Shown here piece by piece: positions 2,501-29,744 of a stretch of DNA of 38,742 bases (positions are counted from its first letter, which is position 1; every line of letters begins with the position of its first letter). The stretch is from assembly GCF_016863315.1 (NCBI RefSeq), contig NZ_BOOQ01000008.1, positions 1-38,742 on the forward strand, written 5' to 3'. The position numbers were made by a program, and so were the translations under genes. The stretch comes from Planotetraspora silvatica (GTDB taxonomy: Bacteria > Actinomycetota > Actinomycetes > Streptosporangiales > Streptosporangiaceae). The notes beneath the pieces are model-generated. The model was not told the DNA's origin. It did not search any database and saw nothing but the letters and a program-made list of their open reading frames with translations.

Positions 2501-2554
2501 CGATGTGCGCCGGTTGGGTCGGGCTCGTGTCAGGGTTGCCTGATGCGGGCCCGA

Positions 2555-11124: not shown

Positions 11125-11200
11125 GTAGGACTTGTGTTAACTATGGCGTGACGTACTGGCGGCACGCGGCGTGCCCCGTACCCGGACTCTGGAGGACGCG

Positions 11201-13600: not shown

Positions 13601-13604
13601 TTGC

Positions 13605-15275
13605 GTGAAGTCATCCTTCGTAGATCCAACTTTTCTGCGGGACCTTGGTCCCGCTGGGTTCACGCGTCAGGTAGAACGGCTCGCGTGGCATCTCGGCTTC
13701 AGCGATGTGCTTAATATCGACGGCCCGAACGACCAGGGAGGGGACCTCCTCGGTATTCGTGCGGGACGTCGCTGGGTATTCCAGGCGAAGTGGAAGTCGA
13801 GGGGTCCGGTGCCCGCTGCGGCGATTGACGAGGTGATCAAGGCAAAAGGCTTCTATAACGCTGATCAGGCTGTCGTGGTCACAAACGCTCACTTCAGCCC
13901 TCAAACTCGCCGACGTCGAGACGAACTAGCGGCGGTGGGCATACGTATCGAGCTCTGGTCGGGTAAGGAACTGATCGATCTGCATGGCGACGACCGGTTC
14001 ACGCCGCCGCGCCTTCCTGGTCGTATCCTGCGCCCCTATCAGATCAAGGCCTTCGAAAGCGTCATCAACGACATCGAGAGCACGGGTAGAGGCCTACTCA
14101 TCCTCGCGACCGGCCTTGGAAAGACCGTGGTCGGTGGCGAGGTTATCGCCCGACACCTTGGACGTCATCCAGGCAGTAAGGTGCTGGTCACCGCGCCGAC
14201 CAAGGATCTCGTTGACCAGCTCGAACGAGCGTTGTGGCCACACCTGACTAAGGCGACCCGGACTCAGCTCCTCACGGGTGACCACAGGCCCGATGACCTT
14301 CGCGGGGTAACGTGCGCGACGACGGCCAGCGCCCTGCGCTTCGCCAAGAGCGGCTACAGCCCCGACTTGATCATGATTGATGAGGCGCATCACGTGGGCG
14401 AGGATGGTCAACTGTCCGAACTACTCGATAGATTGTCCGGCCGCGTCCAGTTCGGTGTCACCGCGACGCCGTGGCGTGGAGACCGTTTCGACATCCGTGA
14501 GAGGTTCGGAGAGCCGAGCTACACACTGGGGATCGAGGATGGTATGAACCTCGGCTATCTCGCCGAGGTGAGGTATCGCCTCTTCGCAGACAATATCGAC
14601 TGGGACTTCGTTAGCGACGTAAGTGAACACAGCTACACGATTAAGGATCTCAACGCCAGGCTGTTTTTGCCGCAACGGGATGAGGCTATTCGGGATCGCC
14701 TCATCGAGGTATGGGGCCAGACCCCAGGACCTAGAGCTGTCGTCTTCTGTCGCACCATCGAGCACGCTGAACGCATGGCAGAAATGCTCGCTCAAGTCCC
14801 GCAATGGAAGGGCGCCGAAGCCATCCACGCTCGGTTGGATCGCAGGGAGCGGCAACTTCGCCTCATGCGCTTTCGTAACGGCGACGTACCTATTATCACC
14901 GCAGTAGATATTTTGAACGAGGGAGTGGACATTCCTGATGTCAATATACTATGTTTCGCGCGCGTGACGCATAGCCGGAGGATATTTGTCCAGCAGCTAG
15001 GACGGGGACTTCGTCTACGCCCGGGAAAGCAGCATGTAGAGGTACTTGATTTTGTGAGTGACATCCGCCGCGTCGCCGCTGTTCTGAGTCTAAGTAGTCA
15101 GGTCGCGACAGATGAAATCGAGACATTAAGACTAGCCGCGCGCGGAACCAGTTTCGAATTCGACGACCAGCGGGCAGAAAGTCTTATGAGGGAATGGATT
15201 AAGGATGCGGCCAGCCTGGAAACGGCGCTCGACGAAGCTAGACTCCAGTTTCCCAATCCGGAAGCGTTCAATTAA
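13605..15275 (+). CDS. Mrr-like nuclease fused to superfamily II helicase
   Basis: A protein of 556 residues. The N-terminal 130 form an Mrr-type PD-(D/E)XK domain: Asp47 in NDQGGDLLG and Gln60-x-Lys62 in VFQAKWK, the QxK variant. The helicase follows: ATGLGKT (168-174, motif I), TAPTKDLVDQL (Ia), IDEAHH (DEAH at 259-262, motif II), VTATP (III), NEGVDIPDVN (V) and QQLGRGLR (463-470, motif VI). All motor motifs look intact. The GTG start has GGGAG seven bases upstream, and the gene follows the ATPase gene after four bases. It is likely a DNA translocase with its own nuclease, as in type I-like and DISARM-like restriction systems. The next gene starts two bases after its stop. Confidence 0.9.
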   Translation: MKSSFVDPTFLRDLGPAGFTRQVERLAWHLGFSDVLNIDGPNDQGGDLLGIRAGRRWVFQAKWKSRGPVPAAAIDEVIKAKGFYNADQAVVVTNAHFSPQTRRRRDELAAVGIRIELWSGKELIDLHGDDRFTPPRLPGRILRPYQIKAFESVINDIESTGRGLLILATGLGKTVVGGEVIARHLGRHPGSKVLVTAPTKDLVDQLERALWPHLTKATRTQLLTGDHRPDDLRGVTCATTASALRFAKSGYSPDLIMIDEAHHVGEDGQLSELLDRLSGRVQFGVTATPWRGDRFDIRERFGEPSYTLGIEDGMNLGYLAEVRYRLFADNIDWDFVSDVSEHSYTIKDLNARLFLPQRDEAIRDRLIEVWGQTPGPRAVVFCRTIEHAERMAEMLAQVPQWKGAEAIHARLDRRERQLRLMRFRNGDVPIITAVDILNEGVDIPDVNILCFARVTHSRRIFVQQLGRGLRLRPGKQHVEVLDFVSDIRRVAAVLSLSSQVATDEIETLRLAARGTSFEFDDQRAESLMREWIKDAASLETALDEARLQFPNPEAFN

Positions 15276-15277
15276 CC

Positions 15278-15886
15278 ATGAGTGAGCTTCCCGAGCCGTT
15301 GCGCCGACGAGTAATCATTGAGATCTATCGCCAGGCTGCAGAGCTTGACTGGGATGGCCTAACTGATAGACAGCGGACGGAACACTACAACCGCTGGCTA
15401 GACGATTTGGATATTGGTGGTGAGCTAGCTCGGTATCTTCACCGCGACAAGATCAGGTACTGGCTCAAGGACGTACCGATGAAGGAGTACGCACGCGCGC
15501 GTAGTGGAATCGGACCACTCGCTGACTTGGTGAGCGTGAGGCTGCCTGGCCCTGATCAGATCGTTAAGCAAGTCATAGGACCCGATTGGTCGGCGGTGGA
15601 CGGAAGTGTCCGCGAAAAACCTAATCGGTGTTTAGTGACTAACGGCTGGGAGCAGAGGCTGATGATATGGGGGCCGCCCAAGGCACTGCGTGACTTGGTT
15701 TGGGCCGGCATCAACAGCGTGGTGGACGATCTCGAGCCGACGCCTCTCTTAGTTATAGCTAGCCCGCGAGGTCTCGAACTTGATCCCGGCGAGAAGAGAA
15801 GGCATGTGCTGCTTGGAGACGTCGCGGGCCTAGAGGTTCTGCATACCGTGCTTCGCGTCATCAGAGTTACCCCGGCGGAGTCCTAG
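15278..15886 (+). CDS. unknown protein of the restriction operon
   Basis: I do not recognise a named family. It has 202 residues and no membrane segment. The N-terminal half is charged and helical and contains WDGLTDRQRTEHYNRWLDD, a pattern seen in proteins accompanying helicase or restriction genes. The C-terminal half has several beta-prone segments (PTPLLVIASPRG, RRHVLLGDVAG). The ATG starts two bases after the helicase stop, so it is almost surely co-translated and acts with that protein. Specificity subunit, inhibitor or scaffold are all possible; the sequence does not decide between them. Confidence 0.7.
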   Translation: MSELPEPLRRRVIIEIYRQAAELDWDGLTDRQRTEHYNRWLDDLDIGGELARYLHRDKIRYWLKDVPMKEYARARSGIGPLADLVSVRLPGPDQIVKQVIGPDWSAVDGSVREKPNRCLVTNGWEQRLMIWGPPKALRDLVWAGINSVVDDLEPTPLLVIASPRGLELDPGEKRRHVLLGDVAGLEVLHTVLRVIRVTPAES

Positions 15887-15981
15887 CCCGCCCGAGGTCC
15901 AGCATCGGCGTCCTATTGGAATACGGCGCTTGCTTGGTAGGCGTCAGACGGGAGGTTCTCTGGGCCGCCTAGCCTCCGTGC

Positions 15982-16054
15982 CGAGTCCGGGATGAGGTGT
16001 GAGACGTGCTTTCAAGCCACGTTGACTCACAAGCCGGGCTGATCGCCGGACTCG
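15982..16054. promoter_or_regulatory. long imperfect stem-loop before the methyltransferase gene
   Basis: Perfect 9-base arms (15982-15990 CGAGTCCGG and 16046-16054 CCGGACTCG) enclose a second stem made of GTGAG/CTCAC (15999-16003 and 16026-16030) and ACGTG/CACGT (16004-16008 and 16018-16022). It starts about 95 bases after the upstream operon and ends about 75 bases before the methyltransferase ATG. It could end transcription of the helicase operon or control methyltransferase expression. Confidence 0.4.
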
Positions 16055-16128
16055 ACGTAACGCATACGATTCGCTCAGGTGTCCAGTTTCACACATAGAT
16101 CAACTTTTCTGCGCGGTACACTTTGGCC

Positions 16129-17400
16129 ATGTCTGAACTGCGAGAAGTCTTGCCCGCGAAGGGTACTAGCGTCGAATTGTTCGCTGGTGGAGGCGGCCTG
16201 GCTCAGGCGATCCATCGCTCTGGATTTCGGCCACTCCTTTTCAATGAGCATGATAAGCGCGCGTGTGAGACATTGTTGGAGAACGGTGCCTATCTTGCGG
16301 ATCCGGAGCGGAACCCGCCGATACCGCAGCCGGATGAACCGTGGCCACTCATCGCCGGGGACATTCAAGACATCAGCTTCAACTATCTCGATGGGAAGGT
16401 GGATGTCCTCGCGGGAGGGCCTCCATGCCAGCCGTTCAGCCTTGGAGGTGTAGCCAAGGGGGACGAGGACAAGCGGAACATGTTTCCTCAGATGTTTCGC
16501 GCCATCCGTCAGATTAGTCCGAAGGCGGTCATTTGTGAGAATGTCCGTGGGCTCATACGGCCCTCATTCAAGGCCTACTTTGATTACATCGTCAGAGAGC
16601 TCACGTTGCCCTTCGAGGAGCGACCAAGGGAAGCGGAATGGCGGGAGCACGACGACGTTCTTCGCCGCAGGCTTGACGAGGTGGAGCAACGTTCCCCAAA
16701 GCGCTATGACGTAATCGTTACACCAGTAAACGCAGCCGACTATGGCGTGCCCCAGATCAGGAACCGGATCATCATCGTGGCCTTCCGAGCCGATCTCGGG
16801 ATTGACATTCAGCGATTCAAGAAACTTGTCGAACCAGAGTTTTCGGAGACCGCGCTTCTCCATTCGATGGTTGACGGCGAATACTGGAAACGTCACGAGA
16901 CGGTTCCCGAAAGTGTCCAGAACGCCGTAATGGCGCGAATACCAAAGGCCCTCCCATCCCCGGACGGAAAGCGGCCTTGGCGTACGTTTCGAGATGCCAT
17001 CGGTGGTATCGATGGAGCCAAACCGCTCCCACCGATTCCGCTCGAGTATTTGGATCGGACGGAGCGGCTTCTGGATGGTTTCACCGACCATGTCGGATGG
17101 CCAGGGGCAAGGATCTATCAAGGCCATACTCCAAATGAACTGGATCGGCCCGCGAAGACCGTTAAAGCAGGTGTCCATGGAGTGCCCGGTGGCGAATCGG
17201 TGGTGCTGCTCGATGATGGCACTTACCGGTACATGACCGTCCGCGAGGCCGCGCGTGTCATGACCTTTCCTGATGAATGGAAGCTTGAGGGTCCCCGTGG
17301 CGAAAAAATGCGCCAGCTGGGAAACGCCGTGCCGGTACTACTTGGAGAGGTCTTCGCTAAGGCCGTGGCTACAGTGCTGCGCGAAGTGGATCGCGATTAG
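16129..17400 (+). CDS. DNA (cytosine-5-)-methyltransferase
   Basis: A type II C5-cytosine methyltransferase of 423 residues that transfers a methyl group from S-adenosylmethionine to a cytosine within the recognition site. Motif I is VELFAGGGGLA (15-25), motif IV is GGPPCQPFS with catalytic Cys100, motif VI is ENVRGL (137-142), motif VIII is QIRNRIII, and motif X is QLGNAVP near the end. The target recognition region lies between VIII and IX. It should protect host DNA from the linked nucleases. The Eco29kI-like partner suggests CCGCGG, but that is inference. The ATG at 16129 is preferred over an in-frame TTG two codons earlier. Its TAG shares one base with the GTG of vsr. Confidence 0.93.
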   Translation: MSELREVLPAKGTSVELFAGGGGLAQAIHRSGFRPLLFNEHDKRACETLLENGAYLADPERNPPIPQPDEPWPLIAGDIQDISFNYLDGKVDVLAGGPPCQPFSLGGVAKGDEDKRNMFPQMFRAIRQISPKAVICENVRGLIRPSFKAYFDYIVRELTLPFEERPREAEWREHDDVLRRRLDEVEQRSPKRYDVIVTPVNAADYGVPQIRNRIIIVAFRADLGIDIQRFKKLVEPEFSETALLHSMVDGEYWKRHETVPESVQNAVMARIPKALPSPDGKRPWRTFRDAIGGIDGAKPLPPIPLEYLDRTERLLDGFTDHVGWPGARIYQGHTPNELDRPAKTVKAGVHGVPGGESVVLLDDGTYRYMTVREAARVMTFPDEWKLEGPRGEKMRQLGNAVPVLLGEVFAKAVATVLREVDRD

Positions 17401-18212
17401 TGAGCGCGCAAGGCGAGACAGGACGGTGGAAGGACAGGCCACCTCCCCTTCGAGCGTGGAAAGGGTATACGCGAACGAGGGCAGGACGGGTGGCCGAACA
17501 AGATCGCGGCGCGGGCGGGAACGATAGGCGCGTGGTTGACTTGGGCGATGGTCGCTTCGCTCGCGCGTCTATCGAGTTGAAGGTCGATAATAAGAGCCGG
17601 CGTATTCGTGCGTATCTTCGTTGGTCAGATAAGGGGCGATCCGCGGCCGTATACGTCGGAGAGGTCGATCACGAGACACGCGCCGAGAATTTGGTCAAGG
17701 CGTGGGATATGGCGAGAGACCAAGGGCTGCTTGTTGACCTTCAATCCTTCGCTTCGCGGGAGTCGTGGGCTTCAAGTCCTGCGACCCGCGCTGTCATGCG
17801 GGGCAACCGGAGTCGGGACACACGGCCAGAGCGGATACTTCGTTCCGCTGTTTATGCTCTTGGGCTCCGATACCGTGTCGCTTTCCCGCCGATGTCAGGT
17901 CTCCGTCGCACTGCGGACATGGTGTTCACAAGAGCGAAGGTCGCAGTCTTCGTGGATGGATGCTATTGGCATGGGTGTCCGGAGCATTATCGACCCGCTC
18001 GAAAGAATTCGGACTTTTGGAAGAAAAAGATTGAGTCAAATCAGGAGCGTGATCGGCAGACGCAGGCCCTGCTCCAGGAGGAAGGATGGAGCGTTATCCG
18101 GGTATGGGAGCATGAAGATGTAGACGTCGCCGCTGCGCGCATCGCTGAAACGGTTCGTAACAGGGGGGACGTTTCTATTCCTACTCCGGAAAATCGCGAG
18201 AGGTTGGATTGA
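17400..18212 (+). CDS. vsr: Vsr-type very short patch repair endonuclease with N-terminal extension
   Basis: A protein of 270 residues. The Vsr domain spans about 123-265: MRGNRSRDTRPE, LGLRYRVAFPPMSG, then RTADMVF with catalytic Asp173, FVDGCYWHGCPEH (His191), and VIRVWEHED. Vsr nicks beside T:G mismatches made by deamination of 5-methylcytosine, so it is the natural partner of the upstream methyltransferase, whose stop overlaps its start by one base. Typical Vsr proteins are about 150 residues; here about 115 residues precede the domain, including a positively charged segment and a small beta-rich stretch (RRIRAYLRWSDKG, SAAVYVGEVD). That extension may bind DNA or a partner ATPase. Confidence 0.9.
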   Translation: MSAQGETGRWKDRPPPLRAWKGYTRTRAGRVAEQDRGAGGNDRRVVDLGDGRFARASIELKVDNKSRRIRAYLRWSDKGRSAAVYVGEVDHETRAENLVKAWDMARDQGLLVDLQSFASRESWASSPATRAVMRGNRSRDTRPERILRSAVYALGLRYRVAFPPMSGLRRTADMVFTRAKVAVFVDGCYWHGCPEHYRPARKNSDFWKKKIESNQERDRQTQALLQEEGWSVIRVWEHEDVDVAAARIAETVRNRGDVSIPTPENRERLD

Positions 18213-18362: not shown

Positions 18363-19148
18363 TCAAGTGTCAGAATCTGGATCAATCGCAAGCAGATCTT
18401 CGAATTCCTGCAGTGAGTCGATAACGGCCTGCCATCGATCCCATGCGTCTCGCAAGGATAACTGCTGCTCAAGAGGGGCAGGTAAGCCCTTAAATGGCCA
18501 GCCATTCGACTGAGCCGCTCGATGAGCAGCTTCGCCTCGTGCTGCGGCTAGGCCCGCGAGGGCGCCACAGAGCACGGAACACTGTTCCTTTACGAGGCTT
18601 CTGCTGAAGCCCAGAGGCGAGAGTAAATTCTCAAGATTGTGGCTACTTATACCGTGGTTAGGTCTCACCACGTCGTCTCTGTACCAATTGCACAGGCGAA
18701 TAATCAGCGTTCTCTTGTTTAGGAGCGGCGATTCAGTCCCTAGTCTATTTTGATTATTCTTGTTGCGGGACTTTATGTCTTTCGTGAATCGCCTGGCCTG
18801 ATCGTCGCTAGCGTAAAAATCTACGAAATGCCCGCCGGCCTCCAGTAGATTTCCAATATTGTTGCGAAAATGGATGCTCAGTGCATGCAAGCAGTTATGC
18901 TGGCTCGACTTGCTGGACTCGTTCACGCATGTAGAGAGGAAGTTTAAGCAGCGAGCTTCGACGTACTCCTCTAGTTCTGCGCTGCATAAAACTAGGAAGG
19001 CGCGAGTATTGGTCGAGATGTCGCGCAAATATTCATCTGTGATTTCATCTGGATCTACTCTTACGCGTCCATCAGAATCTAAGATTCCGAGCTGAATGGC
19101 TAATCTCTCCGCCGGTGCGGCGAGAGGTGTAAGGGATTGGATTGTCAT
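18363..19148 (-). CDS. HEPN-family protein (MAE_28990-like), partner of DUF262
   Basis: A mostly helical protein of 261 residues. The HEPN RNase signature R-x4-H is present at Arg204-His209 (ARGEAAHR), preceded by the helices and NHGISSHNLENLLSPLG that mark the MAE_28990/MAE_18760 type. HEPN proteins of this kind are thought to be RNases in toxin-like or abortive defence units. The ATG overlaps the DUF262 stop (ATGA). Base composition is visibly less GC-rich than in the neighbouring restriction genes, suggesting separate arrival of the pair. It converges with vsr across 150 bases without a clear terminator. Confidence 0.75.
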   Translation of the reverse strand: MTIQSLTPLAAPAERLAIQLGILDSDGRVRVDPDEITDEYLRDISTNTRAFLVLCSAELEEYVEARCLNFLSTCVNESSKSSQHNCLHALSIHFRNNIGNLLEAGGHFVDFYASDDQARRFTKDIKSRNKNNQNRLGTESPLLNKRTLIIRLCNWYRDDVVRPNHGISSHNLENLLSPLGFSRSLVKEQCSVLCGALAGLAAARGEAAHRAAQSNGWPFKGLPAPLEQQLSLRDAWDRWQAVIDSLQEFEDLLAIDPDSDT

Positions 19149-20335
19149 CCCAGTGTCTCCGGAACCGCAGGTGGGAACTTGTGGGGAATGCCACTGGCTT
19201 GAGCGAGTTTGGTCCCCCAGGCGTTAAATCTAGTGTAGACAGCGTAGGGAGTCTTCGTGGTACTAGATACTGCATCGATGAATTCAGGGTCTGTCCGGCA
19301 AAGTTCTTGGAATAGAGCCACAGTCTTAGCGGGATTAGCTACTTGCCAGTCCCTCAAGGGCGAGTCTGTCAGGTAGTGTATTTGGACATCGAATAGTGCC
19401 CGGTTCACCGAGCGTTCGAATTTTCCTGCGGAAAATTTCCTGCATACCTTGTCGGAGAATATTTCACGTGCTGCGAAAATCGCTCGTTCCATTGCTTCGG
19501 TCGCAGCCTGAACCTCAAATTCGGCGCCGGCGTCCCACCTGGTCGACAATTTTTCGGCAGTGTGGTCTAGGAAATTCTTTAGATTTCCGTCGTACTGTTC
19601 GATGCCCATATGGAAAGAAAGGAAGCGCAGGAGTAGTTCAGCGTCGACCATGCGACGGTCAGGCTTGGGCTTGTTGAGTAGCCAGCGCAGTGCTGGACTT
19701 GTGCCGGAGTACGAATCGATATACTCCATGAATGCGCCTGGGTAGAGGGCCTGCCGTAGTTCTTGCGCGGAAAGTTTCAAGCTGCCGGAATTAAGGCGAT
19801 AGAAGACCGTATACAAAAAGTCTTGGCTATGCCACTTGCGTAGTAGCACCGCCCGGATGGTGGCGTTCTCGAAGCGCATGGTTTCTGATGGATATTCCTC
19901 TTCCATCGTCTCATACGTTTTTCCGTTAAGCTTGATAGCTTCCGTGAGACCGGTGAGCTTGATCTTTTCCTCTAGCCAATCGGTGTCGCGAGGATCGTTG
20001 CTGTCGGCGCAAAATTGTCGGATCGCGAGGAGACGCTGCTTTCCATCAATCACCAGATAGCGTCCCGGGCGTTTCGGGTCTTCGGCGAGAACGATCTGAG
20101 GGACGGGGTAGCGTTGTACCAGTGACTCGATATAGCGAGATTTAGCGATCCGCGTCCAGGCGTCTCGTCGCTGGAAGTTCGGTGTTAGATCGATACGACC
20201 CTTGCGCATCTGACTGACTACGGTCTCGACCGTCCAATCAACGGTGGTTGTGGCCGCTTCGTCGTCTTCCCTGGGGGCCAGGTCGCGCTCATCTTCGGCG
20301 GACTCGTCCTGGTCCCAGTCTGCAGCGTCAGTCAT
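19145..20335 (-). CDS. DUF262 protein (ParB/Srx-like N-terminal domain)
   Basis: A protein of 396 residues with an acidic, probably disordered first 30 residues. The DUF262 signature follows: LTPNFQRRDAW (50-60), the segment RYIESLVQRYPVPQIVL, and VIDGKQRL with the D-G-K-Q-R motif at 97-101. DUF262 domains belong to the ParB/sulfiredoxin-like NTPase group found in GmrSD and BrxU type-IV restriction enzymes, where they hydrolyse nucleotides and gate an HNH nuclease. No HNH domain is fused here; instead the overlapping HEPN gene supplies the likely effector. The rest is helical and of unknown function. Confidence 0.85.
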   Translation of the reverse strand: MTDAADWDQDESAEDERDLAPREDDEAATTTVDWTVETVVSQMRKGRIDLTPNFQRRDAWTRIAKSRYIESLVQRYPVPQIVLAEDPKRPGRYLVIDGKQRLLAIRQFCADSNDPRDTDWLEEKIKLTGLTEAIKLNGKTYETMEEEYPSETMRFENATIRAVLLRKWHSQDFLYTVFYRLNSGSLKLSAQELRQALYPGAFMEYIDSYSGTSPALRWLLNKPKPDRRMVDAELLLRFLSFHMGIEQYDGNLKNFLDHTAEKLSTRWDAGAEFEVQAATEAMERAIFAAREIFSDKVCRKFSAGKFERSVNRALFDVQIHYLTDSPLRDWQVANPAKTVALFQELCRTDPEFIDAVSSTTKTPYAVYTRFNAWGTKLAQASGIPHKFPPAVPETLG

Positions 20336-20832: not shown

Positions 20833-21180
20833 GTGACGACTGGTATGGAAGAGCTGGCCGCGCGAATGCGGGACTTCGCGCAGGCTCGTGAGTGGGAGCA
20901 GTTCCATACGCCGAAGAACTTGGCAATGGCTCTCGCTGGCGAGGTCGGTGAGCTGATAGGGGAGTTTCAGTGGTTGACTCCGGCGGAATCGAGCAGCCTG
21001 GATGAGGAGACCTTTGACCGGGTGAGGTCCGAACTCGCCGACGTTACCGCCTACCTCGTTCGGCTTGCCGACCTGCTCGGCGTCGATCTGATCGAGGCGA
21101 CCAAGGCCAAGCTGGAAGAGAATGAGCGGCGTTACGATGCCAATCTTTACCGCGGCTCCGCGAGGAAGGCACCTCACTAA
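20833..21180 (+). CDS. MazG-like nucleotide pyrophosphohydrolase (RS21-C6 type)
   Basis: An all-alpha NTP pyrophosphatase of 115 residues that would hydrolyse a (d)NTP to the monophosphate and pyrophosphate with magnesium. The metal site is ExxE (Glu37, Glu40 in AGEVGELIGEFQW) followed by ExxD (Glu67, Asp70 in SELADVTAYL), the normal pattern. WEQFHTPKNLAMAL is a hallmark of the short RS21-C6/iMazG group with preference for dCTP-like nucleotides. Length is normal for a single-domain member. The GTG at 20833 or the in-frame ATG at 20845 could be the start; GAGG lies better placed for the ATG. It may clean the nucleotide pool or deplete nucleotides during phage infection. Confidence 0.85.
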   Translation: MTTGMEELAARMRDFAQAREWEQFHTPKNLAMALAGEVGELIGEFQWLTPAESSSLDEETFDRVRSELADVTAYLVRLADLLGVDLIEATKAKLEENERRYDANLYRGSARKAPH

Positions 21181-21546
21181 CGTCGCAATAGGCGTGGTGG
21201 GACCCTCCGGGGTCCACGTGCGTGCGGCTGTACTCGGAGCAGGCATGTCTCACCGCTCGTGTGGTCTTGACACCGCCTGTCGGTGGCGAACAGTGACGCT
21301 GGGCGGGCTGGCCCCGACCGTGGGATATAGCCGCTGAAGTGTCGGCCACCGCGGTTAGCGTGCGACTCGCACTTCCCTGCGTTCCCCCGGCGACGGCCAC
21401 CGTTGCTGTCGAAGGAGCTTTCGTGGGCCGCCCGCGGCTACGGCGGCTTGGTCTTGGCGGCGTGGTGGTGCTGGGGGCGATGGGAAGGCCGTGCTCGGAG
21501 AGGACGCGGCAGATTGAACTGCTCCGGCCTCGGTGAACATCATCCG
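21181..21546. other. degraded region, no intact gene
   Basis: This region lies downstream of the decayed JAB remnant on the minus strand and should once have held the rest of that gene, perhaps with a ThiF/E1 domain. I could not find a GxGxxG nucleotide-binding loop or a JAB HxH motif with certainty in any minus-strand frame. Confidence 0.4.
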
Positions 21547-21666
21547 TCAGTACGGCGGTGGTGCGCTGGTCGCCGGTCGAGGTGTGTACGTCGCCAGACA
21601 GACGTCCTCCTGTCCATCCTCTCGGAGCAGGTGGCCGCGTGCTCGCGAGTCGAGTCCGCTGGTCAT
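21547..21666 (-). pseudogene. JAB/MPN deubiquitinase-like gene remnant
   Basis: The ATG at 21666 overlaps the stop of the E2-like gene (ATGA). The frame reads RGHLLREDGQEDVCLATYT, which matches the start of the JAB domain in bacterial ubiquitin-like loci (LL-x-DGQED-x-CFA-x-Y). The family normally continues with a STG-x-x-RTTAL segment; that appears as STGDQRTTAVLTD in a different frame just downstream, showing a frameshift. Nothing clearly homologous follows. In intact loci this protein is a JAB metalloprotease, often fused to an E1-like domain, that removes or processes the ubiquitin-like modifier. Confidence 0.55.
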
Positions 21667-22043
21667 CGCCACGGATGCCCTGATCGCACGGCACCTCTTA
21701 GGACTCCACGCACGTGCGCAATAGGCATGGACGGGCACCCGTGCGCTGCCCCAGGCAGTGATGTTGTGCGAGCGAGCCGCCGCCCAGCCGTCCATGGGAG
21801 ACGGTCCGGCGTTCGCGGCCGCGACGCCACGTTCGCGGACAGGCGGATCAAATGTGGCGGCACAGTCGGCCGCGCTGCGGCCTCGTCCACGCCGGTACGC
21901 ACCGCCAGGCCCGCGAGCGGCCCGGTCACCGGGACGACGGTGTAGGTCACCAGGCGCGACTCGAGGACGGGTTCGGCGCCGAACTCCTCGAGCCCGGCCA
22001 CCAAAGCCTCGACCCCCGTCGGGAACCAGTTTTGGGCGGTCAC
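21663..22043 (-). pseudogene. bacterial E2-like ubiquitin-conjugating gene, frameshifted
   Basis: The first 80 residues match bacterial E2-like proteins encoded beside multiubiquitin genes: VEALVAGLEEFGAEPVLE, VTYTVVPVTGPLAG, and PTVPPHLIRLSANV. The signature then moves to another frame between about 21795 and 21725 (DGWAAARSHNITAWGSA) and returns to the first frame for IAHVRGVLRGAV, so two compensating frameshifts break the gene. The GTG start overlaps the multiubiquitin stop (GTGA) and the stop overlaps the JAB start (ATGA), preserving the old operon layout. The family is expected to carry the modifier on a cysteine; that residue cannot be assigned in the damaged copy. Confidence 0.65.
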
Positions 22044-22300
22044 GCCACCATGTCCTGCCGGTTGACGCTCACAAACACGTCGCCGTCAACATTCACCTCC
22101 TCATCACGGGACGTCTCCGCCTCGCCGTGCTTGCGGACACGAGTGAGGTCGTAGCCGGTTGCGGGGAGCCCGGCGAATGCCAGCAACTTCGCCGCCGTGT
22201 AGTGACGATCCTCGATGGCGAAGCGCTGTCCGTCGATGGCGACCAAGATCTACTCGTCGTGGTCCGGCTTGGGCTTCGTGGGCTCGGCGGTCGAGGCGAT
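22040..22300 (-). pseudogene. multiubiquitin-like modifier gene with nonsense codon
   Basis: The translation from 22246 (VAIDGQRFAIEDRHYTAAKL, then LAFAGLPATGYDL, ending VDGDVFVSVNRQ) fits the beta-grasp multiubiquitin domain of bacterial ubiquitin-like systems: an IDG start, T-x-x-x-LL-x-x-AGL, and an acidic turn before the last strands. Upstream in the same frame is a natural N-terminus (STAEPTKPKPDHDE) cut off by a TAG at 22250-22252, where the family usually has an aromatic residue. The former start codon position reads ATC, just after AAGGAG. A TTG at 22246 could still give a 68-residue product, so some function cannot be excluded. Confidence 0.6.
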
Positions 22301-22451
22301 GCTCCTTGTGTTCAGTGACGACCTCGGGTCTGCCTCGCCCGTCCTGGACGCTGCACCGGCTTGTTCCGTCCGGCGGCGAACCGGTCCACCTAAGCATTAC
22401 CGTAAGAGCGCCGATAGGCACGCAGACCCTGTCAACCGGGGGGACAGGCCA

Positions 22452-22823
22452 GTGCGGTGCGACGTCAGGACGGGGGAATCGCTCTCCGATTCCGGCCCCG
22501 CAGGAGGCTTGCCAGCACATGTCGCGCTGCGGTTGTCGGTCGCGTGTCTGGTCGTCGGGGAGAACGGGGAGTCAGCTGAGCCACCCTTACCAAAGGTCGG
22601 GGAACTGTACCTCGCCAGAACGATCATCTGCCGGACACATCTGTGCGGTGCGACGTCAGTAACCGGGGAAAGGGCCCTCCGAAACCGGCCCGGCAGGAGG
22701 GTTGACGAGTCATGTCGCGCGGCGATGGTCGGTCACACGCGTGGCTCCCCCGGAAGAAGGGGGAGCCTGGCGAGCCGTTCTTACCCAAGATTGGGGAGCT
22801 GTACCTCGTCAGCACCATCATCT
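22452..22823 (+). repeat. diverged tandem duplication of the operon leader and first-gene start
   Basis: Copy 1 (22452-22629) and copy 2 (22643-22823) align over their length at a 191-base offset. Shared blocks are GTGCGGTGCGACGTCA at each copy's start, a CAGGAGG-type ribosome site, the start ATGTCGCG (22519 and 22712), and GGGGA/GCTGTACCTCG near the end. Copy 2 leads into the PemK-like gene. Copy 1 is truncated and frameshifted (KVGELYLARTIIC appears in a different frame from its ATG). Confidence 0.7.
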
Positions 22824-23095
22824 ACGGCTACGACCCGGCCGCAGACCGGCCCGCGGTCGTCATCACCGTTCCTTCGAATCCGGCAGCACGCAGCCCGATC
22901 CAGATTGTCACCCGGACGTCGAAGTACGTTCCCGGCGTTGCGCACCCGGCCGACCTGTCGCTGAAGTGTGACCGCGACGGCGTGTTCTCCGACTTGAAGT
23001 CCGTTGAGCAGCAGTTGTGGAGGCCTCAGAACGTCGAGTACATCGGCACCTTGCCCGACCCCTACCTGTCCGACGTGCTGAGGCGATTCAGTTGA
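22712..23095 (+). CDS. PemK/MazF-like protein, first gene of the Rad50-like operon
   Basis: A protein of 127 residues. After a charged 25-residue N-terminus it has the layout of the PemK/MazF/Kid fold: IGELYLVSTIIYG (first strand), DRPAVVITV (the RP-x-x-V segment), IQIVTRTSK (where MazF has its TS motif), ADLSLKCDRDGVFSDLKSVE, and a final IGTLPDPYLSDVLRRF helix. MazF-type enzymes cleave mRNA; members of this barrel also include non-enzymatic regulators, and which applies here is unknown. AGGAGG precedes the ATG by 11 bases. No classical antitoxin lies upstream. The next gene starts inside its stop codon (TTGA), so it belongs to a four-gene operon. Confidence 0.6.
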   Translation: MSRGDGRSHAWLPRKKGEPGEPFLPKIGELYLVSTIIYGYDPAADRPAVVITVPSNPAARSPIQIVTRTSKYVPGVAHPADLSLKCDRDGVFSDLKSVEQQLWRPQNVEYIGTLPDPYLSDVLRRFS

Positions 23096-24090
23096 CCCCA
23101 CGCGAAGAGCTCCTCAGCACCCGCCAACTCGGGCAGGCAGGAGCCGAACTCCTCTACAAGACGGTCTGGCTTGTCGCGACCGGAAACGGGTTCCCGCCGC
23201 CCGAGGGCTCAGCCAGCTGGAACGAGACCGCCGTGACAGAGACAGCCCACGACTTCGTGAAAGACGAACGCGGGCGTAAACGTCTCCTCGACATTGCCGT
23301 CCGCTCGGTAGACGAGCGCTCGTTCGAGCGGCTTCTCGAAACCGCCGTCCTGAACTTCTTGCGCGATATAGCCAGAGGAACGGACTTTGGCAAGCTAATC
23401 GTACGGGTCAAGGAGATCTTGCGCGACGAGAACGAATTCCACGCGACGCTTGGACCGCCTGAGCGGTGGACTCTCACCGGAGGCCCGACCGCGCCCGGTG
23501 CGACAAGCCCGGACGATCTGATGTCGGCAACCGCTGGGGTGGAAGTTGTCGTCCCTAAGTGGACGAGTGAGCGCCGCGATGCGCCGTTGGCGGATCGGCC
23601 GTCCTTCGTCCGGCTGATGACCAGCGTGCTTACCGCCGCAGGCGGCAGCCTCACAGCAGTTGACATCGCCCGTGCCCTGACAGCGCGGCTTGACCATCGC
23701 AAGACTCCGCATGCCACGATGCTGGACATCCGCGAAGGGGTGTCCGAACCTGCTCAGACCACCGGTGACCCGGCTACCCGCACAGTCGCCGAGCTCCATG
23801 CGGTTGAGATCTTCAACGGCCTCAGCGACAGGGAACGCATCATCATCCCGACCCTGGACAGGAACGTACGCGATCTCGCGCGGTTGATCGGAACAGGCAG
23901 GACACAAGCAGCGTTCATCCGCCAGCGACTCATCGACCGCCTCGGAGATGAGCTCGCTGATGACGACGACCCGGATAGCACCGCAACCGTCCTGTGCGAC
24001 CTTTGCGACGATTGGCTCGCAAACCGGACAGGAACAGACGATGCAACGTCTAGAACTAATGTACGCAACGAAAGGGGTGACAACTCATGA
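23092..24090 (+). CDS. sigma-70-like helix-turn-helix protein
   Basis: A protein of 332 residues starting at a TTG that overlaps the previous stop; a longer frame back to 23017 exists but lies inside the upstream gene. Residues 48-112 (TETAHDFV, then ERLLETAVLNFLRDIARG) resemble sigma region 2. Residues 243-285 (GLSDRERIIIPTLDRNVRDL, then ARLIGTGRTQAAFIRQRLI) resemble sigma region 4, including the recognition helix-turn-helix. A 125-residue insert separates them, much longer than in ECF sigma factors. Near the C-terminus a CDLC motif (Cys302, Cys305) may bind metal. It could bind core RNA polymerase or only DNA. Its stop overlaps the next gene (ATGA), whose product carries an anti-sigma-type zinc motif. 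Confidence 0.55.
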   Translation: MTPREELLSTRQLGQAGAELLYKTVWLVATGNGFPPPEGSASWNETAVTETAHDFVKDERGRKRLLDIAVRSVDERSFERLLETAVLNFLRDIARGTDFGKLIVRVKEILRDENEFHATLGPPERWTLTGGPTAPGATSPDDLMSATAGVEVVVPKWTSERRDAPLADRPSFVRLMTSVLTAAGGSLTAVDIARALTARLDHRKTPHATMLDIREGVSEPAQTTGDPATRTVAELHAVEIFNGLSDRERIIIPTLDRNVRDLARLIGTGRTQAAFIRQRLIDRLGDELADDDDPDSTATVLCDLCDDWLANRTGTDDATSRTNVRNERGDNS

Positions 24091-25487
24091 TCGCAAATGT
24101 CCATCCCTCGTCCAGCGAACTACTAGCAGCTCAGCACGATCCTGACTGTGTAACAGCGGCCCCGACACTTGAGCATCTCGAGGAGTGCCTCGCCTGCCGC
24201 GTGCGCCTAGCGCGCATCCGGCGCGCCTCAGGTCCCGATCCGGCCAGCGCCAATAGCCTCCAGCGGATTATAGAAGCCTCGACTCCGCTACCGGAGGCCC
24301 TAGCCGCCATTGCCTTAGAGGGCAAAGTCGGCGAACCGCAGCCAAACGAGATCTGGCGCATCGGACGAAGCGAAGCTCTGCTGGTGTGGGTCCGACGGGT
24401 CTTTGAGGACGGCATCGCCGACGTTATCCCGTTGGTGCTCGATGTTGAGCTAGCGGATCAGGAAAGCGTCGTGCTCAGCGCAGACGCGACCCCTCTGGCT
24501 ACGGAGACCGCTGCCATGGTGTCGCTGCGAACCCATGTCCATACAGGCGCGTTCCTCAACCGCGTCGCGATCCTCGACATCGGTGAGGACGTCACCGAGG
24601 TGATGACTGCGATGCGGGAGAGCCGCCGGCCCAGCAAGGTTCGGGTTGGCCCGCCGATCGACGATGACGACGACCAGCGGCTCGAATACCGACAGGCGCT
24701 GCGCGATCTACTCGCAGAGCTCGCCCCGAGCGCGTGGCTCGATACCCAAGATGGCATCGGCGCGGATACCAAACAGAGCACGAGCGAGCCGACCGCGAAC
24801 AGCTCACCAGACGGGCTCGACCAGATCAAGGCTGACCTTGGCGAACGACTAAGGGGTGCGCAGATTTGTGACCTCCACCCGCATAGGGTCACGGTCGACG
24901 AACAAGTACAGGCCACAAGCCTTCTAAAGGTTGTGTATCTGGATACCGCCGTTCTCGTCGCGGCCCTCAGCGGGGGGAGCCTTACTGCGTTCCCGGAAAT
25001 CAGAGTCGTCGCTGCGGCGTGTCAGCAATTGACCCTCATCGAAAAGGACGCCGACGCCGTTGCTATGGCCATCCCACATGACGACTGGCCGACCCTGCTC
25101 TTCACGACAGCGCACATGCGCAGTGCGTTGGTGCTCCCCGGTGGTGCACAAACGGGACCAACCGTGACCCTGGAGGGCCTCGGACTTGTCGATACCCTAT
25201 GCAAGCACCTTGAAGGTGCCATGCCCGCATGGGAGGTCACGGAGCGGGCAAGCGGCCGTATCGCAAGGGCTGGCCTCCATCAGATCGCCGCAAGGCACGC
25301 GAGCATGTCCATCGCACAGATCACCGCCGAAGCGAAACGGGCGCACCAGATTGCGAAGCGGACCGCTTGGGGCAGCCTTCCCGACAAACTCGACGAGCGA
25401 GTGGCGAGGTTCGTCGTCGCTGTTGCCAACCAGGAAGCCATAGACGACGCTTTGGCCGAGCTCGCCTTGGAGACACGCAATGATTAG
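24087..25487 (+). CDS. protein with anti-sigma-type zinc motif, third gene of the Rad50-like operon
   Basis: A cytosolic protein of 466 residues with no membrane helix. The N-terminus has HLEECLAC, an exact H-x3-C-x2-C motif (His30, Cys34, Cys37) as in zinc-binding anti-sigma domains. Residues 84-170 (PNEIWRIG, VIPLVLDVELAD, then LRTHVHTGAFLNRV) may form a MazF/CcdB-like barrel; this is a weak match by eye. An acidic linker (PIDDDDDQRLEY) leads to a second half of unknown fold (270-466). An anti-sigma role towards the product of the preceding gene is the simplest reading, since the genes overlap by ATGA. It overlaps the ATPase gene by eight bases. Confidence 0.55.
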   Translation: MIANVHPSSSELLAAQHDPDCVTAAPTLEHLEECLACRVRLARIRRASGPDPASANSLQRIIEASTPLPEALAAIALEGKVGEPQPNEIWRIGRSEALLVWVRRVFEDGIADVIPLVLDVELADQESVVLSADATPLATETAAMVSLRTHVHTGAFLNRVAILDIGEDVTEVMTAMRESRRPSKVRVGPPIDDDDDQRLEYRQALRDLLAELAPSAWLDTQDGIGADTKQSTSEPTANSSPDGLDQIKADLGERLRGAQICDLHPHRVTVDEQVQATSLLKVVYLDTAVLVAALSGGSLTAFPEIRVVAAACQQLTLIEKDADAVAMAIPHDDWPTLLFTTAHMRSALVLPGGAQTGPTVTLEGLGLVDTLCKHLEGAMPAWEVTERASGRIARAGLHQIAARHASMSIAQITAEAKRAHQIAKRTAWGSLPDKLDERVARFVVAVANQEAIDDALAELALETRND

Positions 25488-27255
25488 GCGACTGACGCTG
25501 AGGAACTGGCGCAATTATGAGGACGTCACCGTCGAATTTGAGACTGGAACGACGTTCGTGGTCGCATCGAATGGTGTGGGAAAGACCTCGCTGGTCGAAG
25601 CTGCACGGTGGGCGCTCTTTGGGACGGTTGCTTCAGGTGGCTACGCCGCAGTACGCGCCGGCGCCGCCACCGCCGTCGCCATTATCGAGATCGAACTTCC
25701 TGACCTACGGATCCTCACTGTCGAAAGAACGCTCGCAGGAAAACCCCGCAGTGCCCGCCGGCCTCCGGTGGTCCGTCTCGACGGGGCGCTCGTGCCTCAC
25801 GAGGAGCTCAACCAGCACCTGATCAGCGCCTATGGAACCGAGCCGGGATTTCTGGCGGGTCTAACGATGCCCGCCGTCGACCGAGACCGTGACAAGCCCT
25901 CGGAGCTCGGCCTCGAAGACCACCTGGGCCGATACTACGGAATCGACGGCCTCAGGAATGCGGTCAACCAGCTCAAGACCAAACGGAAGTCTAACGAAGC
26001 CCGCATCAAGCAGATCAAGGCTACAAACTCCACGAGCTCCCAACGGCTCACCCAGCTGCAAAACGAGGTGGAACAAACAGCACGCCGCGTCGAGGAGGCC
26101 GCTACAGAGCACAAGGCCCTGCGAGACAGGGTCGATAGGGCACGGGAGCGGGAGCGCCTCAAGGCTGACATGCAAAAGTGGCAGGACCGCCACTCAACCT
26201 GGACCGAAGCCGTCGAGAGGCTGGCTGTGCGGGTCTCTCCCGACCTCGGCCGACCCGTCGACGTCGACAGCGTCGAGAGACTGCTCGACGAACGACTGGC
26301 CGACCTGGATCAGCGGATCGAGACCATCCGTGTCGAGGTCGCGGTCAACGTCACCAAAGATGCGGCCCTGACGGCCAACGAACAGCGCCTCGATGCGGCG
26401 CATGACGACTGCCCAGTCTGCCGGCGACCACTCGACGACGCGACACTCGCCTTGGCCCACGAGGCCAACATGCAAGATCTCTCTGCTATCCGCAACGCAA
26501 TCCTCGAACTCAGGACAGCCGAGACCGATCTTCTCGCTCAGCGCGAACGCGTTAAGGCCTCCCAGGCTGAGTGGCGACGAATCTCGCAGCCTGGGGAGCC
26601 GCCCCAGGCTCCCTTCGCTGACGATGACCCGCCCGTCGCCGCTGCTCAACTCGCTGCGATGGCCGAGGTCGCACTCGGCACGCTAGTGGAGGCTCGCGCA
26701 TCCCATGTCCAAGCGACACGAGAACTCGACGAAGCTCGCGCGGCTGACGAGTCGATGCTTGAGCTCGAGTCGTTGTTCAGGCAAGAGGCGAGCCTCAGGG
26801 TAGCTGTTGAGGCAACCGAGGCGACGCTCACGGAGCTGCTCGACGAGACGATTCGCCCGCTCGCGATAGAGGTGGACCAGCGTTGGAAGGCGTTGTTCCC
26901 CGCCCGTGGAGACCTCACAACGTACTCAGATGGAAACATCACGAGGACAGTCAACGGGCACTCACTGCCCTATGACTCGTTCAGCACCGGCGAAAGTATG
27001 GGCGCGACCATCCTTTTGCGGCTCCTTGTTGCACAGATGGCCACGACGGCTGACTTCTGCTGGTTTGACGAGCCTCTGGAGCATCTCGACCCAGATGTCC
27101 GTCGGAAGGTGGCAAGCCTTCTGTCCCGCGTCACCAGCGGGGAAGGTCCGCTAAGGCAGGTAGTAGTGACCACCTACGAGGAGCCGCTCGCGCGCCACCT
27201 ACAAGCTCGGGACCGACACAAGGTCAAACTCCTAGACGTACGCCAGGCGGGCTGA
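25480..27255 (+). CDS. compact Rad50/SMC-like ABC ATPase with CxxC hook
   Basis: An ABC ATPase of 591 residues built like a small Rad50. Walker A is NGVGKTSLVE (31-40). Two short coiled coils (about 165-220 and 340-460) flank a CPVC zinc hook (Cys311, Cys314). The ABC signature is SFSTGESMG (500-508), and Walker B is FCWFDEPLEHLDP (Asp530, Glu531). All catalytic elements look intact. True Rad50 is usually 850 residues or more, so the arms here are short, as in OLD-, Lamassu- or ABC-3C-type defence ATPases. It probably senses or tethers DNA ends and drives an effector encoded upstream. No nuclease partner such as Mre11 is adjacent. It is the last gene of the operon. Confidence 0.88.
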   Translation: MIRRLTLRNWRNYEDVTVEFETGTTFVVASNGVGKTSLVEAARWALFGTVASGGYAAVRAGAATAVAIIEIELPDLRILTVERTLAGKPRSARRPPVVRLDGALVPHEELNQHLISAYGTEPGFLAGLTMPAVDRDRDKPSELGLEDHLGRYYGIDGLRNAVNQLKTKRKSNEARIKQIKATNSTSSQRLTQLQNEVEQTARRVEEAATEHKALRDRVDRARERERLKADMQKWQDRHSTWTEAVERLAVRVSPDLGRPVDVDSVERLLDERLADLDQRIETIRVEVAVNVTKDAALTANEQRLDAAHDDCPVCRRPLDDATLALAHEANMQDLSAIRNAILELRTAETDLLAQRERVKASQAEWRRISQPGEPPQAPFADDDPPVAAAQLAAMAEVALGTLVEARASHVQATRELDEARAADESMLELESLFRQEASLRVAVEATEATLTELLDETIRPLAIEVDQRWKALFPARGDLTTYSDGNITRTVNGHSLPYDSFSTGESMGATILLRLLVAQMATTADFCWFDEPLEHLDPDVRRKVASLLSRVTSGEGPLRQVVVTTYEEPLARHLQARDRHKVKLLDVRQAG

Positions 27256-27934: not shown

Positions 27935-29389
27935 TTAAGGCTGCCGGCCGTCGTCTCGCAACTCTGTCTCCTTACTGGCCGGCTTCTTCGGTAATGCATC
28001 AATCCGGGCCACTTCAATGGTTAGGCCAGTTTTTTCGCGGAGCAATTCTGCCTCCGCCTCCAACTTCCGCCAACGCTCCCGCATCGGAGCGGTTTCCGAG
28101 TCTCTTATTACAAGGAAAATTGCGTGCTGCACATCCTGCCCCTTCATATAGAGAGGAGTCTGGACTTGTAGTCCATTCCAGAATTTGCCATGGGTTAGCT
28201 TCTTCATTTCCAAAAGAACTCGCAGTCGCTCACTACCCGTAAAGGTGAAATCGACTGGACCCCGGCCAGTTTCAACCTCTCGGTCTAACCTTACTCCTGC
28301 ATAGCGGCAGAAATCATCTAGGACACCTAGGAAGATGAGCTGCATAATAGGCTCTGGCACGGTTATCTTTTCGGCAACGTCGCCCCAAAAGGCACGCCAG
28401 CCCCCCTTGTCCTCGATCCAATGACGGAATTTTTCCACAGCTTTGTGAGCGAACTCCAGAAGGTCGTCGCCAGAATTAATGGAGATATCTTCTAGATCCG
28501 ATTGGGCTACCGCAGAAGACGCCACCTTCTGCCATTTAACCAAGAGCTTCGGATCGCCGTCGACGTCGTACGGTTCCGCACCAGCTTGCTCCATTAACCT
28601 GATCCACTCGCGAAGACGGTTAGGAGCACGCCGCGCAGCAGCGACGATGTCGTCCTTATTAACATTCGTCGAAATATCTAGATTAAGATCGTCCCTAAGC
28701 GATGTATCCAAATGCTTCGCCCAATTTCCCGAGCTAAGCTTCGGCAGTTCCGCCAAGAACTTCTTCGGGACCAATATTATCGGCTTTCCAGTCCTCGGAT
28801 CCTTAGGCAATAGCACCTCAGCCTCGACCCATCGCCGCCTGAATTCATCGTAACGACCGTGCTCAACTCTCGACACCTCCAACGGAACACCTAATGAATG
28901 GCATGCATGTTGCGTATAGTCGATAAATTCCGGCTTCAACACATTGCAGGTTATATCAGATATGCGATCCTTGTTTATGCCTTTAACCAGAATGCCCAAT
29001 TCTTCAAAATGTTCGATATCCTCTAGCCCGCGCTTTATTGCCTCGCACATGGCCTCGATAATGCTTGTTGCTAACCCTTCACCCGCGCCCGAACCATCCG
29101 CGCTATCCGAGCCGAAACCCAGTCGGAACTCTTTGGGCTCCGGAAAAAGCATTTGAGTCCAGGCACGCTGGAATAGCTGATGCTTAGGTTTCAACCCCGA
29201 CCTAGCGAGGAGGGCGAATGTGTCGTGGAAATGCTTAATTATCTTCGCATGAGCCTCACGCCATCGTTCATCCTCCGACGAGAAGATCAGAAAAGGATCC
29301 ACGAAAAGGAGCGTGTCACACTCAAGGAGCGGGTCGAACCATTCATACTCTTCCGGGTCCTCGATACCGAAGGCTTCACTGAAATACAT
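27935..29389 (-). CDS. stand-alone PD-(D/E)XK nuclease-like protein, unknown family
   Basis: A protein of 484 residues. The C-terminal part has a clear PD-(D/E)XK core: GRGPVDF (Asp), then VLLEMKKL (Glu-x-Lys), and FWNGLQVQTPLYMKG, where the glutamines often orient the lysine. The N-terminal 300 residues contain FVDPFLIF and INKDRISDITCNVLKPEF, which look like a conserved domain I cannot name. The ATG at 29389 is preferred because the 36 upstream codons look unrelated. The gene is less GC-rich than its surroundings, a sign of recent transfer. It has no methyltransferase or helicase beside it, so it is probably a single-gene or modification-dependent defence nuclease. Confidence 0.6.
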   Translation of the reverse strand: MYFSEAFGIEDPEEYEWFDPLLECDTLLFVDPFLIFSSEDERWREAHAKIIKHFHDTFALLARSGLKPKHQLFQRAWTQMLFPEPKEFRLGFGSDSADGSGAGEGLATSIIEAMCEAIKRGLEDIEHFEELGILVKGINKDRISDITCNVLKPEFIDYTQHACHSLGVPLEVSRVEHGRYDEFRRRWVEAEVLLPKDPRTGKPIILVPKKFLAELPKLSSGNWAKHLDTSLRDDLNLDISTNVNKDDIVAAARRAPNRLREWIRLMEQAGAEPYDVDGDPKLLVKWQKVASSAVAQSDLEDISINSGDDLLEFAHKAVEKFRHWIEDKGGWRAFWGDVAEKITVPEPIMQLIFLGVLDDFCRYAGVRLDREVETGRGPVDFTFTGSERLRVLLEMKKLTHGKFWNGLQVQTPLYMKGQDVQHAIFLVIRDSETAPMRERWRKLEAEAELLREKTGLTIEVARIDALPKKPASKETELRDDGRQP

Positions 29390-29744
29390 AGGTGAGATCA
29401 ACCCCTCTCTGCCCTCACGATCACAGTAGGCGCGTGTAAGGGTGTGCGCTAGTCCCACCTTCCAAATCAATGCTGCAGCCAGGCATGCGGCTGGCACTCC
29501 AATAAGACCATCAGCCGAGAGCCAGGTGAGGTCTGGGGCGGTGGATCCCGTCTTGACTGCAGTAGCGGAGGAGTTGACCTATAGGGCCGAGTTCTAATTT
29601 CACGTGCTTGTGACCTGCAGGAGGACCGGTGTCTCCCCATCCGCGCGGGGAAAGGCTTCCCTGTCGAAAATCTGGTTGCTCGTTACTGCGTCCGCAACCA
29701 TCGGCGCCGCAAGGCCGCCACCGATACCCCGCCCCCTCGAACCC

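Follow-up and report, generated by a model that had tools for sequence, protein, structure and literature searches.

The window analysed here is a stretch of 38,742 nucleotides (nt) from Planotetraspora silvatica, which makes up one complete contig (C8, 38742 bases; NZ_BOOQ01000008.1) of an 8.66-Mb host genome. It carries, at 22712-27255, an operon of four open plus-strand genes (g1 to g4) encoding a MazF-like protein, a sigma-like protein, a zinc anti-sigma-like adaptor, and a Rad50-like ATPase. Our best reading is that this module, formed from a sigma/anti-sigma-like pair and a Rad50-like ATPase, is an operon-linked controller of a bacterial ubiquitin-like (Bub-type) pathway. It is rather probable that the module is an autoregulated controller which switches on both itself and the Bub operon. 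The chances are about even that the Rad50-like ATPase reports DNA ends to the sigma/anti-sigma pair, and that the freed sigma factor turns on ubiquitin-like conjugation, and in actinobacteria also a MazF-like RNase, via co-evolving promoters. The first-pass annotation, an earlier reading of the same DNA, had described the four genes and overlooked both the adjoining Bub-type operon, which is decayed in the window, and the promoter sequence common to the two operons.

Gene content of the module

The four genes follow each other with successive overlaps of 4, 4, and 8 bases, and the coordinates bear out this part of the first-pass annotation. When compared with their Micromonospora veneta copies, they differ mostly at third codon positions (26/15/45 differences at codon positions 1/2/3 for g1, 57/38/158 for g2, 97/76/222 for g3, and 100/72/258 for g4).

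The g4 product matched SMC_N (E = 1.9e-13) and AAA_23 (1e-12), and the Rad50 hook at 0.0025, below the family cut-off. The profile of its family found Rad50 structures (6e-18) and the Rad50 hook 6zff (4e-10). The ABC-type ATPase ends, the coiled coils, and the CxxC hook that had been claimed were all found, the hook reading CPxC with C311, P312, and C314 invariant in 19/19 sequences. No nuclease family was matched by g1, g2, or g3, and hence no Mre11-type partner was seen in the operon.

For g1, no Pfam, NCBIfam, or PADLOC family was found at E <= 1, and no MazF was matched by sequence in the PDB. Its AlphaFold model (predicted local distance difference test, pLDDT, 74; predicted template modelling score, pTM, 0.68) matched MazF, in agreement with the proposed MazF/PemK type: 48 of the 50 Foldseek matches listed were MazF or MazEF, and the other two were S. 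aureus toxin entries. Among the matches listed, the best E was 3.6e-3 and none was <= 0.001, with probabilities of 0.99-1.00 and TM scores of about 0.5.

The adaptor g3 contains, as had been noticed, an exact H-x3-C-x2-C motif (H30, C34, and C37), which is a pattern of the zinc anti-sigma (ZAS) type. The motif was invariant in 6/6 aligned homologues of the subtype represented by the window (subtype A, see below) and was also present in locus L058. It lies in an N-terminal helix pair, beside a sigma-like gene, as in ZAS proteins, and the adaptor of locus L043 matched zf-HC2 at 0.18, below the cut-off. Contrary to the gene set of the first-pass annotation, the zinc motif is not a general part of the module: it was absent from the adaptors of the other subtype (subtype B, ~300 amino acids, aa), where a different N-terminal part takes its place. 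The C-terminal domain is common to the adaptors of both subtypes (hhalign 97.9%, E 3e-13). No meaningful PDB match was obtained for g3, no plasmid matched it, and neither g1 nor g3 matched any PADLOC family.

Distribution and two subtypes

In 249 genomes of the order, g3 found only itself, besides two spurious frames (other reading frames of dehydrogenase-like genes in G033 and G041). Long matches to the g4 family were present in 10/396 genomes of the phylum, and g4 was found in 4/100 relatives and 4/394 genomes of the class, the own genome being counted each time. Eight of the 18 matching phylum genomes had short g4 matches (E 1e-9 to 2e-10), which were interpreted as ATPases of the generic Rad50 type and left out. 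A collection of species genomes scanned with the g4 alignment gave 23 loci.

After removal of duplicates (L025, L027, L028, L052, L055, and L056, 97-100% identical) and addition of one plasmid (L109), 31 distinct loci were retained. In this count, L033 and L034 were taken as second pieces of the L035 and L031 genomes, which brings 33 rows to 31 loci; the pieces overlap by 93 bases and, with 98.6% identity, by 423 bases, respectively, and two copies are possible in the second case. The sigma gene of L031 was found via reading frames and then served as its own query in the count, and likewise g3 of L058.

The sigma-like gene, the adaptor, and the ATPase occurred together on one strand in 27/31 loci; homologues of the module genes are thus regular neighbours. 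Among the other four loci, L032 and L047 are truncated where their contigs stop, L063 has no partner genes, and L064 contains only part of an ATPase. The loci are labelled Actinomycetota and Chloroflexota, or come from metagenome-assembled genomes (MAGs) named Gammaproteobacteria, Deltaproteobacteria, Hyphomicrobiales, and Thermoanaerobaculia, MAG labels being possibly wrong through misbinning.

Subtype A, with a long g2 and a long g3, comprises the window, Micromonospora veneta (L036, whose ATPase is 73% identical to g4 of the window), Williamsia maris (L037), Mycobacterium deserti (L038), Aeromicrobium Root495 (L039), a Nocardioidaceae MAG (L043), and L058. The MazF-like gene is present in 6/7 of these loci, standing before g2 in L036, L037, L038, L039, and L043. 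The proposal of a four-gene system therefore holds for the window and five other actinobacterial loci, where MazF-like gene, g2, g3, and g4 are conserved as a set, but the MazF-like gene is limited to one subtype; no g1 homologue was detected at subtype B loci.

Although 100 stretches of viral contigs matched the ATPase, none was confirmed as a relative, nor was any relative confirmed in phages; a single plasmid, pP7a of M. avium (L109), was found to carry one. The adaptor of this locus had no phage match. Six genes are colinear there, and the sigma gene is labelled 'sigma-70 family RNA polymerase sigma factor' by NCBI. Downstream of this six-gene array, at 12753-16770 (+), genes annotated as TnsA-like, Mu-transposase-like, and AAA ATPase may reflect a Tn7-like carriage.

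The neighbouring Bub-type operon

Three genes lie beside most subtype B operons and beside the L036 module. They encode a ubiquitin-like protein (BubA), an E2-like protein of ~115 aa (BubB), and a JAB-E1 fusion (BubCD). All three were found at 14/27 module loci, that is, 13 relatives and the decayed window copy, and any ubiquitin-like piece at 18/27, four loci having pieces besides the three-gene ones. At most loci the Bub and module arms are transcribed divergently; L053, L057, and L109 have them in a colinear arrangement.

The JAB-E1 fusion matched Citrobacter BubCD structures at 6e-25 (9ea5) and Pfam ThiF at 3e-25, and within its metalloprotease motif, H-x-H and D were invariant in 13/13 sequences. 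Its JAB half is seen weakly by the Prok-JAB model (0.081). A Prok-JAB scan was uninformative on the Bub arm, with above-cut-off matches in 28/28 genomes, none of which, among the listed places that were compared, lay at these loci. BubA matched Multi_ubiq at 6.9e-5 (L062) and 0.065 (L044), both below the cut-off; L030 was left out of the BubA alignment. BubB matched nothing in Pfam or the PDB and lacks an invariant cysteine, and its name rests on its place and on the operons of row 6e in the part of Iyer 2006 drawn on here (PMC1779556).

In L037 and L039, another ubiquitin-like set lies directly downstream of g4; that of L037 consists of Multi_ubiq (8.8e-19), DUF6791-ThiF, and DUF6527 proteins. 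At two further BubCD loci, L104 and L105, the neighbours are helix-turn-helix (HTH) and Peptidase_M78 domains of the CapH+CapP-like kind, in one protein in L104 and in two in L105, where the match of the second protein was below its cut-off. In L105 (6149-11159, -), BubCD is in two pieces separated by two genes which by eye resemble an IS21-type element, and the ubiquitin-like gene contains two tandem repeats.

In the window, the Bub arm is decayed, and its remnants (21536-22297) lie just upstream of the module. The conserved PPHW and HSR motifs of the BubB-like stretch are lost in the frame read, and the remainder of BubCD, including the E1 half, was not found.

A predicted promoter common to both operons

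At the level of sequence, a two-block predicted promoter was found before the putative target genes. In subtype B it reads (C/T)TTTC-N16-GCGACA, and when the DNA upstream of the sigma gene was compared with one fixed pattern, 13/17 loci had <=2 mismatches and 2/17 had three. Weight matrices were trained by leave-one-out on the sigma-side sites of the other loci only (L044-L046 being left out together) and were run along the two strands of every locus in full (9,278 to 35,534 positions). These scans took 12/17 subtype B loci; L040-L042, which have no Bub arm, and L062 and L035, which have no recognisable site, were dropped. The Bub-side and sigma-side sites ranked 1 and 2 in 10/12 loci, the exceptions being L048 (ranks 3 and 1) and L029 (ranks 5 and 2). 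L029 has the variant block GCAACG on both sides, and the plasmid L109, outside the training set, has TCGACA on both sides (ranks 1 and 6). These paired variants suggest that the Bub-side and sigma-side promoters change together. In L040-L042, the second block before the sigma gene is TCGATA or TCGATG.

The subtype A promoter is predicted as CCGGAC-N12-TGCGACGTC. It is perfect before g1 in four of seven loci (the window, L036, L037, and L039); L043 departs from it by 2 mismatches and L038 by 3. The 8.66-Mb genome contains no perfect match besides this g1 site of the window. In each of four regions, 0/2000 shuffled sequences had a site with <=1 mismatch, the motif used having initially been noticed by eye in these loci. 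In 5/6 loci examined, the g2 end or the DNA directly after it contains a second site (<=2 mismatches), 33-37 nt upstream of g3; L043 has 4 mismatches. On the Bub side, L036 has the type-A motif with a 13-base spacer. The multiubiquitin gene of L039 has a site with 1 mismatch in front of it; at the corresponding place, L037 has 4 mismatches. In Mycobacterium deserti (L038), where no Bub arm was seen, a 2-mismatch type-A-like site at 5109-5135 (-) faces a divergent uncharacterised gene. A genome-wide type-A regulon was rejected as too noisy: the pattern occurred at 169 places in the window genome (G000) at <=2 mismatches vs 113 for the reversed pattern, and at 9 vs 6 at <=1 mismatch.

The module could alternatively be a self-standing defence or toxin unit, in which g4 senses DNA and frees a MazF-like RNase, as the first-pass annotation suggested, the Bub neighbour being incidental. 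This would agree with the window genome, where the four-gene module alone is intact and no BubCD was found elsewhere (61/61 candidates scored), and with L038 and L043, where all four genes occur but the DNA compared contains no ubiquitin-like gene. However, subtype B loci keep the same sigma-adaptor-ATPase order with no g1 homologue detected, and the promoter is common to the Bub genes across rearranged (divergent and colinear) loci. We regard this explanation as unlikely.

That the four genes persist in the window genome as nothing more than a functionless, decaying remnant is very unlikely. The adjoining Bub genes are broken, the 5' end of g1 is partly duplicated, and no close copy was found in the 249 genomes of the order, all of which such decay could explain; yet the four genes are open, show third-position bias, and are preceded by a perfect predicted promoter.

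The sigma-like protein

The g2 profile gave a weak match to sigma region 4 of FliA (E 0.018). The g2 model is helical (pLDDT 74, pTM 0.50), and in PADLOC the protein weakly matched PDC-M54A only (8.7e-4). The proteins at the same place in subtype B (~200-270 aa) matched Sigma70_r2 in 11/15 and Sigma70_r4 in 9/15 members (best 5e-9), and PDB sigma factors at 1e-7. A further locus, L103, encodes near a BubCD gene a g2-like protein (E 1e-6 over g2 38-211) with a significant Sigma70_r4_2 match (1.1e-6), and a g3-like protein (E 2e-5) with a zf-HC2 match of 0.004, below the cut-off. These sigma-like and zinc anti-sigma-like genes lie at 2083-4538 (-); a g1-like protein there is doubtful (probability 11%, E 0.003), and no g4-type Rad50-like ATPase was found at the locus. 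Judged from these similarities, L103 appears to be a bridge between the two sigma groups. The sigma identity of g2 is suggested by its region 4, by the overt sigma proteins of subtype B at the same place, by the bridging L103 protein, and by the promoter.

A repressor assembled from sigma-like parts is another possibility, if an improbable one: g2 would bind the motif as an operator, and g3 and g4 would relieve repression, as has been reported for CapH+CapP or CapK+CapS. The part of PMC13373217 drawn on here includes repressors among the reported Bub-operon controllers, and g2 shows no detectable sigma region other than the DNA-binding region 4. A repressor fits less well with the region 2 of the subtype B proteins, or with a motif that is non-palindromic, has a fixed spacer, and always faces the gene, its end lying 33-102 nt upstream of the annotated g1 starts and 33-37 nt upstream of g3.

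Proposed mechanism

The gene content and order, the family assignments, the decayed Bub arm, and the common promoter sequence were computed directly; from them we infer how g2 may use the promoter, how g3 may inhibit g2, how g4 may sense DNA and cause release, and what may happen to the cell. The sigma-like g2 would be held by the adaptor g3, itself coupled to g4. When g4 meets DNA ends, or damaged or foreign DNA, g3 would free g2, which would then steer RNA polymerase to the two-block predicted promoter before its own operon. In relatives with a Bub operon, g2 would also transcribe BubA-BubB-BubCD from the same promoter type, and in subtype A the MazF-fold protein would be produced from the same predicted promoter. 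The Bub arm of the window being decayed, the intact module has no targets left there other than itself or unlinked ones, and the MazF-like protein would be the one visible effector in this genome.

Several observations weigh against a sigma-based control of Bub operons. The first group concerns g2. The first-pass annotation was right in kind about the gene identities and proposed sigma regions 2 and 4 in g2; region 4 stands as the weak match given above, but no region 2 was found in g2 by sequence, including a search with an N-terminal sub-profile. The sigma fold is also put in question by the Foldseek search of the g2 model, which returned no sigma factor among the 50 matches listed, and against the subtype B sigma profiles only region 4 of g2 aligned, weakly (E 0.034, probability 1.5%).

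The second group concerns the promoter. The two-block motif was first noticed by eye, between the operons and on both strands. Upstream of the sigma gene, L062, which has a Bub arm, and L035 have 4 mismatches and no recognisable motif, and L058 has no recognisable type-A motif.

The third group concerns the association itself. Nine of the 27 module loci lack a ubiquitin-like neighbour in the DNA compared, some contigs being short; four of the nine, from one genus (L026, L040, L041, and L042), have sigma-like gene, adaptor, and ATPase without any Bub gene. A BubCD of this family was absent from 12/14 genomes searched whole; the set comprised the genome of the window, G970 as positive control, and a further 12 selected because their locus had shown no canonical BubCD. 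Conversely, of six sampled genomes in which BubCD was matched, four gave no match to g4. The nine loci without a neighbour and the 12 genomes without BubCD suggest that the module may serve other targets.

Organization of the window

The positions of the module, of the Bub remnants, and of the predicted promoters are given in Table 1.

Table 1. Features of the module and of the decayed Bub arm in the window, with predicted promoters.
Feature	Position	Strand	Remarks
BubCD remnant	21536..21681	-	First 49 residues, in two frames
BubB-like (E2-like) stretch	21687..22043	-	51% identity over 121 columns to L036
BubA-like (ubiquitin-like) stretch	22043..22297	-	68% identity over 87 aa to L036
Degenerate predicted promoter facing the BubA remnant	22347..22373	-	2 mismatches
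Degenerate predicted promoter copy	22440..22466	+	2 mismatches; before the partial duplicate of the g1 5' end
Partial tandem duplicate of promoter and g1 5' end	22452..22625	+	75% identity over 177 columns
Predicted promoter CCGGAC-N12-TGCGACGTC	22631..22657	+	Perfect; 54 nt before g1
g1, MazF-fold protein (subtype A only)	22712..23095	+	127 aa; model matches MazF chains
g2, sigma-like protein with region 4-like C-terminus	23092..24090	+	332 aa; TTG start
Second predicted promoter	24024..24050	+	1 mismatch; inside the g2 end, 36 nt before g3; same place in L036-L039
g3, zinc anti-sigma-like adaptor with H-x3-C-x2-C N-terminus	24087..25487	+	466 aa; C-terminal domain common to subtype B adaptors
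g4, Rad50-like ATPase with CxxC hook	25480..27255	+	591 aa

Other genes surround the module. A restriction-type cluster at 11171-18212 (+) encodes an HATPase_c_3 protein, an Mrr/ResIII helicase, a C-5 DNA methylase, and a Vsr-like nuclease. At 18363-20335 (-), a weak RiboL-PSP-HEPN match (4.6e-5, below the cut-off) adjoins a GmrSD_N protein matching NsnA (8.5e-65). A small MazG-like protein (1.8e-7) is encoded at 20833-21180 (+), directly before the decayed Bub arm, and a protein matching the candidate defence family PDC-M36A (5.5e-32), at 27935-29497 (-), adjoins g4 on the opposite strand.

Comparison with known systems

The first-pass annotation knew of no described system with this gene set, and PADLOC names none. 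The module did not appear in the literature searched, although it may have been mentioned before. It resembles MADS and Lamassu in the ATPase family of g4 (mad3 2.4e-23, LmuB 1.8e-15), but g1-g3 match no mad or Lmu family, and the labels mad3 and LmuB were rejected because the PADLOC matches concern the ATPase alone. The predicted MazF fold of g1 recalls MazEF; however, g1 has no sequence-family match, and no MazE-like or antitoxin family was matched by g2-g4.

Extracytoplasmic function (ECF)-type sigma factors with ZAS partners are a known arrangement. The module shares with it the sigma regions in subtype B, the H-x3-C-x2-C motif of subtype A g3, and a predicted promoter before the sigma operon. 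It differs by the long extra adaptor domain, by the Rad50-like ATPase in the operon, and, in subtype A, by a g2 without a detected region 2.

The adjoining arm in 13 relatives, with its ubiquitin-like protein, E2-like protein, and JAB-E1 fusion, resembles Bub (bacterial ubiquitination-like) operons and the operons of ubiquitin-like (Ubl), E2/RWD-like, and JAB-E1 genes in row 6e of Iyer 2006, in the part drawn on here (PMC1779556). The words 'sigma' and 'SMC' are absent from the main text of that paper. The genes g1-g4 themselves are no Bub genes, and no intact BubA-BubB-BubCD set was found in the window.

CapW, CapH+CapP, and CapK+CapS are described as controllers of Bub and other immune operons in the part of PMC13373217 drawn on here, according to which Bub pathways have three kinds of DNA-damage-responsive regulators and phage protection has not yet been shown. 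Like these, the module is an operon-linked regulator beside a Bub operon, divergent or colinear to the Bub genes, and HTH and Peptidase_M78 genes hold the neighbouring place at L104 and L105. No Pfam match to the WYL, HTH+peptidase, or STAS/GHKL domains of the Cap controllers was found in g1-g4; the module consists instead of a sigma-like factor, an adaptor, and a Rad50-like ATPase, and spans loci labelled with several phyla as well as a mycobacterial plasmid. If our reading is true, this sigma route would be a mechanistically different fourth kind of Bub control, linking DNA-damage sensing to protein tagging through an alternative sigma factor. It would explain the Rad50-like ATPase beside a ubiquitin-like system, and the exact predicted promoter sequences would provide a handle to turn Bub on.

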